From NCBI GenBank assembly GCA_902797435.1, contig CADBSV010000056.1:1-34405 (forward strand): 34,405 nucleotides of DNA. The letters are read 5' to 3'. Position numbers and translations under genes: made by a program. How positions within the stretch are numbered: position 1 is the stretch's first letter; each line of letters starts with the position of its first letter. The notes beneath the pieces were generated by a model. That model had not been told where the DNA came from, did no database searches, and was given only the letters and a program-made list of their open reading frames with translations. Below are positions 2,930 to 20,111 of the stretch, one piece after another. This DNA is from an uncultured Bacteroidia bacterium. GTDB lineage: Bacteria; Bacteroidota; Bacteroidia; Bacteroidales; UBA932.

Positions 2930-4117
2930 CTAACGCTGCACGAGAAGCGAAGCTATCTCATGATAGGCGCGGCGGGGCCGGAGATCATACAGCCTTGATG
3001 GAGAAGAAGACGGCAGTTTGGCACATACGCCGAACCACTCCTCGTTCATATTCTCGCTGCCTTTCACATAATCGAAATAATATCCTCCGTTGTGCCACGA
3101 TGGCTCAGTGTCGTGTTCCCATAGACGCACGTCCTGTCCGTGCTTCCACCATTCGTCGCTGAACTGGAAGGTAAAACCTCCCATGCAGCGGCCCGCAGAA
3201 AATTCTGCAAGAATCTCCTTCCAGTTGGCAAGGTCTATTTCGGCCTGTCCGTCCTGTTCCTCGCAGCCCACCACTACATTATAGGCATCGGAGCCGAATT
3301 CCGTAAGAAGGAGCGGCCTTGAACACTCTGCCGATACCCTGTCGAACAAATCGGTAAAGGAAGGGCCCCTGTAGGTGTTGACTCCGAAAATATCGACATC
3401 GGGACAAAGCGATTCGAACAGGTCCAGGAACAGAAGGTCCCCGTTCACCACCGCCACAGGAACGGAAGGATCGGCGGCCTTTACTTCCCGCGCAGAAGCG
3501 TTAAGAAGGCGGTACAGGTGCTCAGCACGGGCCGTGGAAACTGAATCCGGCTCCGGGATGTCCTCGGTCTCGGCACCGTCCCAGAACAAGCCGTAATTAT
3601 TTTCGTTTCCGAGCATATAACACAGCAGGCCGTGGGTTCCGCGGTACTCACGCGCCATTCTGCCTGCCTCGGCAAGAAGCTGCGAACGGACATCAGGGTC
3701 TCCGTAGTCGGTGTTGGGTTCCCACTCCCCTCTTACCGTGAGCCCGTAGCGGCCCATGGTGCAGTTCACCATGGTACGGATTCCGTAATTCTTGAAGATA
3801 TACTCAATCCAGCGAGCGGGGATACCTTCATATATGCGCACGGTATTCACTCCCATATCGCGGAGCAGGGCCATGTCGTAATCCAGCTGGCCGGCTATCA
3901 GCGAATCGGGCTGATCCCATATATTGAAAGCCCAGTTGGAGCCTATCGGATAGCAGCTCCAGTTCATTCCCTTGACCGTATAAGGCTTGCCATCCACAAT
4001 CAGGCGTCCTCCTTCTATGGAGACGCCTCCCCCGCGGGAGCAGGACATGACGGAGAAAACCGCCATGAGCACCGCTGGAAACAATATTCTAAGAATCCTT
4101 CTCACGTTTTTCTGCAA
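2930..4117 (-). CDS. Clan GH-A TIM-barrel glycosidase lipoprotein, last gene of the PUL
   Basis: This is a predicted lipoprotein: a basic N-terminus, a hydrophobic stretch, then VMSC with Cys26 counted from the upstream start. No acidic residues follow the Cys, which suggests a periplasmic location. The barrel shows NTVRIYEG near residue 91, YMLGNENN with candidate acid/base Glu172, and LLLTEFGSDAY with candidate nucleophile Glu273. This two-Glu layout is that of clan GH-A. I cannot place the family: GH2-C-like, GH5-like and GH72-like barrels all fit parts of it. In this PUL it probably acts on beta-glucan oligosaccharides, as hydrolase or transglycosylase. No ATG gives a full signal peptide. 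The start is either TTG at 4117 or GTG at 4105, and both lie inside the end of the symporter gene, which implies translational coupling. Confidence 0.8.
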   Translation of the reverse strand: MQKNVRRILRILFPAVLMAVFSVMSCSRGGGVSIEGGRLIVDGKPYTVKGMNWSCYPIGSNWAFNIWDQPDSLIAGQLDYDMALLRDMGVNTVRIYEGIPARWIEYIFKNYGIRTMVNCTMGRYGLTVRGEWEPNTDYGDPDVRSQLLAEAGRMAREYRGTHGLLCYMLGNENNYGLFWDGAETEDIPEPDSVSTARAEHLYRLLNASAREVKAADPSVPVAVVNGDLLFLDLFESLCPDVDIFGVNTYRGPSFTDLFDRVSAECSRPLLLTEFGSDAYNVVVGCEEQDGQAEIDLANWKEILAEFSAGRCMGGFTFQFSDEWWKHGQDVRLWEHDTEPSWHNGGYYFDYVKGSENMNEEWFGVCAKLPSSSPSRLYDLRPRRAYHEIASLLVQR

Positions 4118-5579
4118 GCATAAGCTTTATCTCTTTCATCTTTTCCTCCGAGAGGTCGTAGCCTGTCATTATCACTACCGCCAGCAGGGCCGTCAGGGAC
4201 GGAATCAGGATGTCCGCAAGGCGGAGGCCGGTAATCGTGGAGGCAGCCTGATGCACTTTGGCGGCATCGAAGGATATTCCTTTGAGCACCACCCCGCACA
4301 CAAGTCCGGCGATACTCTGCCCGAATTTCACCATCCACCAGTAGATGCTTCCGAATGTCCCCTCACGGCGGCGGCCGTCGTTCTGAAGTTCGTCCAGGTC
4401 GCAGACATCGGCTGTCATGCTCATCATAAGGGTGAAAAGCCCCCCGATTCCGAAACTCATAAGCGGAAGCGGAATGAACATAAGCCAGTTATGTGACGGA
4501 CTGAAGCACCACCACTTGAGGATATAACCCAGAATCGAGACTATCGTGGATATCATGAAGGCCTTCTTCTTGCCGTATTTCACCGCCAGACGCGTAATGA
4601 TTGGAATGACCAGGAACGCCGTTATGATGGAATTGACGCATGAGAACAGCGCCGGCCAGTTTCCGGCGGCAGCCTGATTGCCGTCGAAGAGATAATAGAC
4701 TATGATATAGTAGCTGTACGAGCCGACTACCTGATAGCCGTTGAACACCAGAAAAGTAGCTCCGCAAAGCATAAGGAAATACTTGTTGCGGAATACTTTG
4801 CCTATACCGCTGAAGAGGTCGCCAAGGGAACTCCAAAGTCCTTTTTTGTGAGCATAGGCAGATTCGGGAACCGGCTTCTCCCTGCAAAACAGCGCCGGCA
4901 TCACGCCCAGGACGATGCAGATTACCGCCACGACCATCGCCAGCTGCTGTACGCCTGCGGCCGTTGGATTCATTACGACCTGTCCCGTTACGGAATCCAG
5001 AATCTGCTCTCCGGTAGCAGGATCGACGGCCGGAGCCTTCGGGAAAAGATCGCTTGCGACAAGAACCCAGAACCACGGGGAGATTATCCATGCGAACTGC
5101 CCCACCACCTGGGAGAAACCCATGAGGCGGGTGCGCTCGTTGTAATCGTCCGTAAGTTCATATCCGAGTGCCACATAAGGAGTGGCGAAGACGGTCTCAC
5201 AGGTGAAGAACAGAAGGCTCACCAGCAGATAATACCAGAAATTATGGGTACTTCCAGCAGCCGGGTCCATCTGCCACAGCAGCACGAACACCACCCCGCT
5301 CAGGATTGCTCCTATGAAGATGTAAGGCCTGCGCCTTCCCCAGCGGGAACGGGTATTGTCGGAAATGTAGCCCATAATGGGGTCGGTGATAGCGTCGTAA
5401 AGCCTTGGAACAAGGCTCAAAACACCCGCCACCAGCGGGTCGATCCCGAAAATGGTAAGGAGGAACACGGAGAATGTTCCAAGCGCCCCAGGAAGGAAAT
5501 TATTCACGAAGTTTCCGAGCCCGTATGCGAGTTTCTGAACGAACGGGAGCCTGCCCTCTGCTGCTTTGGAAAGTGTCAT
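4089..5579 (-). CDS. GPH-family (MelB-like) sugar:cation symporter
   Basis: This is a 12-helix inner-membrane major-facilitator protein of 496 residues in the glycoside-pentoside-hexuronide:cation symporter family. The family signature is clear: YDAITDPIMGYISDNTRSRWGRRRPYI at residues 61-86, split here by function. Asp62 and Asp66 match the cation-binding aspartates Asp55 and Asp59 of MelB, and SRWGRRRP is the loop 2-3 motif. There is no signal peptide. The start codon overlaps the GH30 stop by 4 nt (ATGA). Placed between an upstream cytoplasmic phosphorylase and periplasmic glycosidases, it most likely imports beta-gluco-oligosaccharides or glucose with Na+ or H+. The substrate is inferred from context. 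Confidence 0.9.
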   Translation of the reverse strand: MTLSKAAEGRLPFVQKLAYGLGNFVNNFLPGALGTFSVFLLTIFGIDPLVAGVLSLVPRLYDAITDPIMGYISDNTRSRWGRRRPYIFIGAILSGVVFVLLWQMDPAAGSTHNFWYYLLVSLLFFTCETVFATPYVALGYELTDDYNERTRLMGFSQVVGQFAWIISPWFWVLVASDLFPKAPAVDPATGEQILDSVTGQVVMNPTAAGVQQLAMVVAVICIVLGVMPALFCREKPVPESAYAHKKGLWSSLGDLFSGIGKVFRNKYFLMLCGATFLVFNGYQVVGSYSYYIIVYYLFDGNQAAAGNWPALFSCVNSIITAFLVIPIITRLAVKYGKKKAFMISTIVSILGYILKWWCFSPSHNWLMFIPLPLMSFGIGGLFTLMMSMTADVCDLDELQNDGRRREGTFGSIYWWMVKFGQSIAGLVCGVVLKGISFDAAKVHQAASTITGLRLADILIPSLTALLAVVIMTGYDLSEEKMKEIKLMLAEKREKDS

Positions 5580-20000: not shown

Positions 20001-20111
20001 GAGCGGAAATCCGTCATCCTTCGCAATTACTGTCCCGGAAACCTTGACGTTCTGCGCAAGCAGCACCGAACTCATAAGGACTCCGCAAATAAATGCCAAA
20101 ATTCTTTTCAT
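17007..20111 (-). CDS. SusC/RagA-family TonB-dependent glycan transporter
   Basis: The 1034-residue outer-membrane protein imports oligosaccharides using TonB energy. The signal peptide is [20 protein letters not shown]. A carboxypeptidase-regulatory-like domain follows (about residues 22-95: [23 protein letters not shown]). Next come the TonB-box region AVVAIGYG and the plug ([56 protein letters not shown], read in blocks). The rest is a 22-strand barrel ending in the aromatic VNMNF. There is no STN domain for anti-sigma signalling, which fits control by the adjacent one-component regulator. The start at 20111 was chosen over 20144 because it gives the signal peptide. It is the first gene of the PUL. 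Confidence 0.97.
   Translation of the reverse strand: [1034 protein letters not shown]

Follow-up and report, generated by a model that had tools for sequence, protein, structure and literature searches.

A beta-glucan utilization locus that probably ends in phosphorolysis

A 34,405-nucleotide stretch of contig CADBSV010000056.1 from an uncultured Bacteroidales bacterium (assembly GCA_902797435.1), the whole of which is referred to below as the window, carries a Sus-type operon of ten genes (20111-2930, minus strand) and, running divergently on the plus strand, a gene for a membrane regulator. We interpret this operon, with a probability of roughly 80%, as a locus for utilization of beta-1,6-branched beta-1,3-glucan that ends in cytoplasmic phosphorolysis by an enzyme of glycoside hydrolase (GH) family 149, and that joins a front end of the genus to a tail probably foreign to the family. 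In operon order, the genes encode SusC, SusD, a SusE-like protein, GH16, GH128, a BACON-domain protein, GH149, GH30, a GPH/MFS symporter and an unclassified lipoprotein. A sequence-only reading of this stretch had recognized GH16, GH128, GH30, the symporter and a phosphorylase, and Pfam and NCBIfam matches on the minus strand confirmed all five; hidden Markov model searches assigned GH16, GH128, GH149 and GH30 to families and left the lipoprotein at 2930-4117 without one. The gene content fits the beta-1,3(1,6)-glucan that had been proposed as substrate.

The phosphorylase (7036..10089, minus strand; 1017 amino acids), previously described only as GH94/149/161-like, is a GH149 beta-1,3-glucan phosphorylase, scoring 1340.3 bits against the curated model NF058639 (cut-off 1150). 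With this model passed, GH161 was ruled out, a GH161 chain (9qqk) matching at just 57.0 bits, as was GH94, which has no match anywhere in the window's genome. The start was set at the ATG at 10089 because a longer open frame runs into the preceding gene, and no signal peptide was seen at the resulting N terminus; for marine GH149 enzymes, action on absorbed oligosaccharides has been suggested, either inside the cell or in the periplasm (PMC11573768). The protein matches the solved enzyme Pro_7066 (6hq6) in two long stretches. The catalytic and phosphate-binding residues R, D, W, N, D, E and H, taken from a published description (PMC6771811: the catalytic Asp in a WND motif, an RD motif, and a conserved Glu and His), are all present and are invariant in 101 of 101 aligned GH149 sequences.

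Upstream of GH149 lie two endo-glucanase-type lipoproteins, both probably at the cell surface. The GH16 protein (open frame 13628..14626, minus strand, with a likely start at about 14575) matches PF00722, and a lipobox-like ILCGC was noted by eye in a sequence that a simple lipobox pattern did not pick up. The GH128 endo-beta-1,3-glucanase-type protein (12372..13631, minus strand; lipobox AVSC) matches PF11790 (Glyco_hydro_cc), which we take to cover GH128, at 178.7 bits, and its best solved relatives are 8j3x and 6uaw. Downstream of GH149, the GH30 lipoprotein (5576..7039, minus strand; PF02055 and PF17189; lipobox LAAC) is a probable debranching beta-1,6-glucosidase. Its best solved relatives are of the glucosylceramidase type, which presumably belongs to GH30_1, and it is 56% identical to the GH30 adjoining GH149 in a locus titled Formosa sp. 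Hel1_33_131 (L036). In Formosa, GH30 strips the beta-1,6-linked glucose off laminarin ahead of chain cleavage (PMC6246565). One paper labels GH30_1 as endo-beta-1,6-glucanase (PMC11573768); for the window's GH30 this activity lacked support, the score against the curated model NF053856 being 235 bits where the cut-off is 700. The simple pattern identified lipoboxes in GH30, GH128, SusD, SusE, the BACON protein and the 2930-4117 protein. Acidic residues after the lipoprotein cysteine mark proteins for the surface; such residues follow the cysteine in GH128 and are absent from this position in GH30 and the 2930-4117 protein, which suggests that GH128 is at the surface and the other two are in the periplasm.

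The GPH/MFS sugar:cation symporter (4089..5579, minus strand) matches PF13347 (MFS_2/GPH) at 241 bits, and scores 209 bits against the NCBIfam gph model, under its cut-off of 231. The genes for GH149, GH30, the symporter and the lipoprotein overlap by 4, 4 and 29 bases, which suggests that they form a single transcription unit. No gene of the locus matched a GH3 model at E 0.001. GH30 is itself of the beta-glucosidase type, but its lipoprotein signal places it outside the cytoplasm. The earlier statement that the locus lacks GH3 or any other cytoplasmic beta-glucosidase was thus upheld.

In the pathway that we propose from this gene content, the surface GH16 and GH128 lipoproteins would cut the polymer, SusD and the BACON protein would hold the glucan, and SusC would import the oligosaccharides. 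Periplasmic GH30 would remove beta-1,6-linked glucose, the unclassified lipoprotein would trim or cut the chain in the same compartment, and the symporter would move linear laminari-oligosaccharides over the inner membrane to cytoplasmic GH149, which with phosphate would yield glucose-1-phosphate plus a final glucose. Characterised GH149 enzymes accept glucose as an acceptor (PMC6484121), so these enzymes should be able to act down to the disaccharide, and one enzyme could therefore convert n glucoses to n-1 glucose-1-phosphate and one glucose. Compared with hydrolysis and glucokinase, an oligosaccharide of n glucoses would then save n-1 ATP. It is highly improbable that GH149 is instead mainly synthetic, making or remodelling intracellular beta-1,3-glucan, given that its gene lies within a SusCD import operon alongside endo-glucanases and a symporter, and that no glucan-synthase glycosyltransferase match was found among the locus genes. 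GH16 additionally passes PF03935 (SKN1/KRE6, associated with eukaryotic beta-glucan synthesis; 51 versus 30 bits), but its solved relatives are glucanases.

Tails of related loci and probable origin of the GH149 tail

A search for GH128 matched 19 of 299 genomes of the window's family, its own included, and eight stretches from the same genus (L162-L169) were then compared with the locus. In six of these (L162-L167), relatives of SusC, SusD, SusE, GH16 and GH128 occur in one run, and in five of the eight a homologue of the regulator adjoins SusC on its far side. L162, which is cut inside SusC, is the closest of all (SusC 87% identical over the part present, SusD 82%, SusE 66%, GH16 71%, GH128 78%). 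L163 and L166 are more distant (SusC 70 and 68%, SusD 59 and 60%, SusE 34 and 35%, GH16 58 and 59%, GH128 46 and 45%, respectively), and both end in a GH3 (Pfam; BglX model over its cut-off). In L162, L164 and L165 the last gene encodes a protein related to the window's BACON protein (26-34%), with a BACON match in L165 only and below cut-off, and L167 ends at GH128. The remaining two stretches are arranged differently, L169 having a GH3-like match about 7 kb from its GH128. In L168, a single frame of 668 amino acids (L168:9286-11289, genome G675) matches both the SusE-like protein and GH128, a possible binding-enzyme fusion.

The window's GH149, GH30, symporter and lipoprotein had no match in any of the eight same-genus stretches. 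Nor was GH149 found in the eight genomes, in a scan in which control genomes were also without a match, although the same model matched the window's genome in other scans. Across the family, GH149 occurs in 1 of 398 genomes, the window's own; these 398 are a sample of a larger group, and 206 of them reach 90% completeness with contamination of no more than 5%. GH149 was found in 48 of 393 genomes of the order (the window's own included) and in 88 of 300 genomes of another family. On this distribution, the tail of GH149, GH30, GPH symporter and lipoprotein probably came from outside the family, and it seems to have been exchanged into, or added to, the end of a locus whose counterparts in two sister species finish with a glucosidase. 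In the arrangement that we propose, a local front end of regulator, SusCDE, GH16 and GH128 would carry this tail.

The operon and regulator are placed between lpxB (1789-2910) and yggS (22995-23723). Both flanks were assigned by Pfam, the latter to the alanine-racemase-N family, for which we assume the name yggS. In two stretches (L138 and L139), surE, lpxB, yggS, yidC, a DUF349 gene and trmD follow the window's order without the locus, and the other four of the six stretches compared do not have lpxB followed by yggS; a consistent empty site was therefore not borne out. Among 30 LpxB loci, three others have yggS on the other side. The window's GH149 and GH30 are closest to those of Prevotella.

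GH149 loci in other bacteria

To place the locus more broadly, we compared it with 80 GH149 loci, the best 80 of 591 confirmed relatives in named genomes. Four are from Prevotella/Prevotellaceae, with 66-67% identity to the window's GH149, and 76 others have 45-51% identity and carry titles mainly of flavobacteria, Saprospiraceae and other Bacteroidota, plus one of SAR86. By title, one of the Prevotella relatives is from roe deer abomasum, and two have RUG names, which we take to denote rumen genomes. GH3 was absent from 62 of the 80 stretches and found in 18 with a 19-seed profile (17 of 80 in an earlier count with two seed sequences); many of these stretches end at contig ends, and more distant GH3 genes are missed. 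Where at least 8 kb was available on both sides, 41 of 52 loci were without GH3.

The absence of GH3 is thus not an unusual feature. The proposal that phosphorolysis stands in place of GH3 hydrolysis holds in the sense that L163 and L166 have the same front end with a GH3, in genomes without GH149, and fails as a claim of something special to this locus. Co-occurrence of GH128 and GH149 was likewise rejected as unique to the window: none of the 80 loci contained GH128 at E 1e-4, but an independent Bacteroidales locus (L190) has SusC-, SusD- and SusE-like stretches together with GH16, GH128, MFS, GH149 and GH30.

Points against the reading, and alternatives

Several observations weigh against the interpretation given above. 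GH3 and GH149 are both missing from four of the six loci that share the front end (L162, L164, L165 and L167), so the locus may not have started out with a GH3 tail. The empty site is not displayed in L106 and L135, the nearest relatives by LpxB, over the stretch examined. The lipoprotein is closest to that of L073 (58%) and the symporter to that of L071 (58%), each slightly closer than Prevotella. A clean transfer of the whole tail from Prevotella was not borne out, and with the nearest relatives differing by gene, a one-block transfer from one donor is unsupported. Three of the four Prevotella relatives have GH3 together with GH149, indicating that the two are not mutually exclusive. Finally, the window's genome (1.87 Mb in 81 contigs) is 80% complete and contains two GH3 matches, both on other contigs. 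One, on contig C46, has a signal-peptide-like N terminus by eye. The other (C36, 52410-53120) contains an in-frame TAA, possibly a broken gene or an assembly error.

These points bear on the possibility that hydrolysis is still dominant, with GH30, the unclassified lipoprotein and a GH3 secreted from elsewhere in the genome giving glucose, and GH149 handling a minor fraction. The C46 copy and the co-occurrence in the three Prevotella loci speak for it, as does a gut locus of Bacteroides uniformis in which a periplasmic GH3 performs the last step (PMC7157763). We consider it unlikely, however, as the operon is without GH3 but includes the symporter and GH149 in a run of overlapping frames, and the two GH3-ending sister loci are without the GH149 tail. 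The phosphorolytic end that had been predicted for the locus is consistent with the intact catalytic residues of GH149, the symporter and three matches to phosphoglucomutase/phosphomannomutase-family genes in the genome; the completeness of the genome and its two GH3 matches qualify it.

The nature of the glucan is a further such point. The best solved relative of GH16 is 5nbo (161 bits), which we take to be a mixed-linkage glucanase of Bacteroides ovatus, and laminarinases follow closely (e.g., 6jh5, 155 bits). The substrate might accordingly be a mixed-linkage or cereal glucan, or a fungal wall glucan, rather than a laminarin-like algal glucan. BuGH16 cuts mixed-linkage glucan too (PMC7157763), and a gut or rumen habitat, suggested solely by the titles of the Prevotella relatives, would supply fungal and plant glucans. 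We regard this as rather unlikely, since the debranching-type GH30, GH128 and GH149 are all indicative of a beta-1,3 backbone branched through beta-1,6 links, although fungal wall glucan would also fit that description.

A GH149 clade without Dom 1

In a pairwise alignment, chain positions 390-448 of Pro_7066 have no counterpart in the window's GH149. Chain numbering runs 19 ahead of the paper, as counted on the alignment, which places the gap at residues 371-429; Dom 1 of Pro_7066 is described as residues 370-428 (PMC6771811). At this place the window's GH149 has 9 residues instead of 53. In an alignment of 121 GH149 sequences, 25 have 8-19 residues here and the other 96 have 53. The 25 comprise the window, four Prevotellaceae and 20 sequences of another Bacteroidales family (f41), which were picked as nearest to the window, so that 25 of 121 is not a frequency. 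Many other f41 sequences break at the Dom 1 position in searches and thus probably carry an insert there. In one genus of another Bacteroidales family (g173), both unbroken matches, such as an enzyme lacking Dom 1 should give, and matches broken at this position occur. When the Dom 1 columns were left out of tree building, the 25 sequences grouped together with a support of 0.863, and the window and the Prevotellaceae with a support of 1.0.

The surface glucan site of the solved enzyme differs along with Dom 1. Among the 96 sequences bearing Dom 1, Tyr occurs in 77 at Y841 and in 77 at Y993 (with Phe in 13 more), and Glu in 90 at E994, whereas the 25 without Dom 1 have no Tyr at Y841 or Y993 (Phe in seven at Y993) and Glu at E994 in three, the window included. 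At Y841, E990 and Y993 of Pro_7066, the window's protein has R, A and R, and its C terminus is 17-25 residues shorter than those of the 96. In comparison with Pro_7066 (6HQ6/6HQ8; PMC6771811), the catalytic and phosphate-site residues are shared and the N-terminal and catalytic domains are alignable; Dom 1, the longer C terminus and the Y841/E990/Y993 surface-site residues are missing from the window's enzyme. Dom 1, a structural feature described for the one solved enzyme, does not define the family: the window's protein passes the curated model without it. A GH149 clade without Dom 1 and without the surface-site tyrosines, as defined by these alignments, is new; no description of such enzymes was found in the open-licence literature searched.

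The unclassified lipoprotein

The sequence-only reading had not named the last gene of the operon (2930..4117, minus strand, TTG start), which encodes a lipoprotein resembling clan GH-A that is probably an enzyme, to judge from alignment, profile matches and predicted structure. Neither Pfam nor NCBIfam gave a match, Pfam not even with the threshold relaxed to E 1. Across 22 aligned sequences, N171-E172 and E273 are invariant. Profile matches were obtained to 6pal (GH158, 3.9e-6), 9oro (GH158, 2.5e-5) and 9fz9 (GH157, 1.9e-4), and the predicted structure (pLDDT 84.6) gave Foldseek matches to GH157 (4e-16) and GH158 (1e-12). The protein shares with these laminarinases a clan GH-A-like barrel and the Asn-Glu and second Glu motifs, but at 15-19% identity and TM-scores of 0.55-0.58 it is a distant relative at most. 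Membership of GH158 was rejected on profile matches that are only partial (best 3.9e-6, no single stretch passing alone) and TM-scores of 0.55-0.57, and membership of GH2 was rejected as the GH2 catalytic-domain model was not matched.

A relative with more than 40% identity occurs in 52 of the 80 GH149 loci; L051, in which two frames together encode it, brings the count to 53. Thirteen of the 52 stand alone (415-435 amino acids) and 39 lie within proteins of 983-1074 amino acids (e.g., L073:4059-7196 and L047:4434-7553). In one model of a fused protein (L073), which is weak (pLDDT 67.1, pTM 0.45), the extra 600 or so residues form long beta-hairpins, which suggests a barrel-like part; BtuB outer-membrane barrels are among its Foldseek matches. 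A glycosidase anchored to an outer-membrane barrel of its own would, if real, be an unusual arrangement. A distant paralogue (23-27%) of the lipoprotein was also seen in L059 (6517-7533), L065 (14701-15705), L075, L080, L081 and L082, just downstream of GH149 and before GH30 or the symporter, a position that in other loci is taken by a gap about as long. The two paralogues scanned, from L059 and L065, pass the Pfam cut-off of the GH2 catalytic domain, and that of L059 passes GH72 too.

Published laminarin loci contain partners to which this family may correspond. The order GH149-GH0-GH30_1-GH17 is that of the variant 1 laminarin polysaccharide utilization locus (PUL) expressed in blooms (PMC10108472), and a GH2 gene is mentioned for Muricauda loci (PMC13188888). 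The relatives in L003, L020 and L073 pass PF02836 (44.9, 31.4 and 24.9 versus 21 bits) and that in L047 does not, so the GH2 label in print may denote this family. The lipoprotein family may be the "GH0" of marine laminarin loci, or the GH2 of Muricauda loci. A GH157/GH158-like fold, as modelled, is new for this unclassified partner of GH149, and the conserved lipoprotein is a good candidate for a new GH family involved in the use of beta-1,3-glucan by Bacteroidota, both marine and non-marine.

Remaining genes

SusC (17007..20111, minus strand) is a TonB-dependent outer-membrane transporter with Plug and barrel Pfam domains that scores 880.9 bits against TIGR04056 (cut-off 368); its first ATG is at 20111, and the open frame itself starts at a TTG at 20144. 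The surface glycan-binding lipoprotein SusD (15464..16993, minus strand) matches PF07980 and PF14322 and has the lipobox LTAC. The lipoprotein in the SusE position (14633..15418, minus strand; 261 amino acids) has a lipobox and a relative in the same place in six same-genus loci, and no family match in Pfam or NCBIfam. The BACON-domain lipoprotein (10139..12220, minus strand; PF13004; lipobox LLSC) is a probable surface glycan-binding protein. The regulator (20259..22847, plus strand), also not named previously, is a membrane protein with propeller repeats and a Y_Y_Y domain (PF07494 and PF07495 over cut-off) and a weak LuxR-type C terminus, its GerE match of 16.3 bits being below the cut-off of 23.5. 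Outside the locus, the window encodes a phosphate-selective porin O/P-type protein (31299-32366; PF07396).

Significance and comparison with published systems

Phosphorolysis in place of GH3 is a sound idea that is already in print for GH149 loci, and loci of this kind are known from marine bacteria (GH149-GH30_1 laminarin loci, including replacement of GH149 by GH3 in some Muricauda loci; PMC13188888). What is new is the contrast of tails within one genus, with GH149, GH3 or neither behind the same front end. With such a contrast, the energy advantage supposed for phosphorolysis could be put to the test, and the roles of Dom 1 and of the surface glucan site could be probed with the enzymes that lack Dom 1. 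We further propose, tentatively, and as a possibility that remains rather doubtful, that the Bacteroidales GH149 without Dom 1 is a phosphorylase of short-chain laminari-oligosaccharides, alongside which GH30, the symporter and the new clan GH-A family travel as a cassette able to replace a resident GH3 tail and so convert a hydrolytic locus to a phosphorolytic one. If this is true, comparing the window with its same-genus relatives that end in GH3 would be an obvious way to measure the gain in a fermenting bacterium.

The majority of Bacteroidetes GH149 genes lie in PULs or carbohydrate-active enzyme clusters with GH3 and/or GH30_1, and GH16 and/or GH17 (PMC5827456). From animals, GH149 is reported as a family abundance, without loci, in dairy-cow and yak metagenomes (PMC10185794, PMC9163737) and among the laminarinase families of fish-gut gene clusters (PMC11333855), and a GH149 enzyme came from a screen of mine-reactor and beaver-faeces clones (PMC8950772). 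No gene-by-gene account of a GH149 locus from terrestrial-gut Bacteroidales was found in the open-licence literature searched.

The window's locus has the SusCD pair, GH149, GH30 and MFS transporter by which the variant 1 marine laminarin PUL is recognized (PMC10108472, PMC6246565, PMC13188888). Many variant 1 PULs have GH16, as does the window, and in many Muricauda loci the first gene is annotated as LuxR, resembling the window's regulator. In contrast with the variant 1 PUL, which has a GH17 often fused to the MFS transporter, the window has GH128, and no gene of its locus matched GH17 at E 0.001. The window also differs in its GH149 without Dom 1, its standalone lipoprotein and a front end that belongs to its own genus. 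With the B. uniformis locus (PMC7157763), the window shares SusC, SusD, an extra binding protein, GH16 and a clan GH-A endo-glucanase. That locus has a periplasmic GH3 end and, unlike the window, a hybrid two-component regulator, and whereas the portion of its published account available here lists no phosphorylase, GH30 or symporter, the window has all three.

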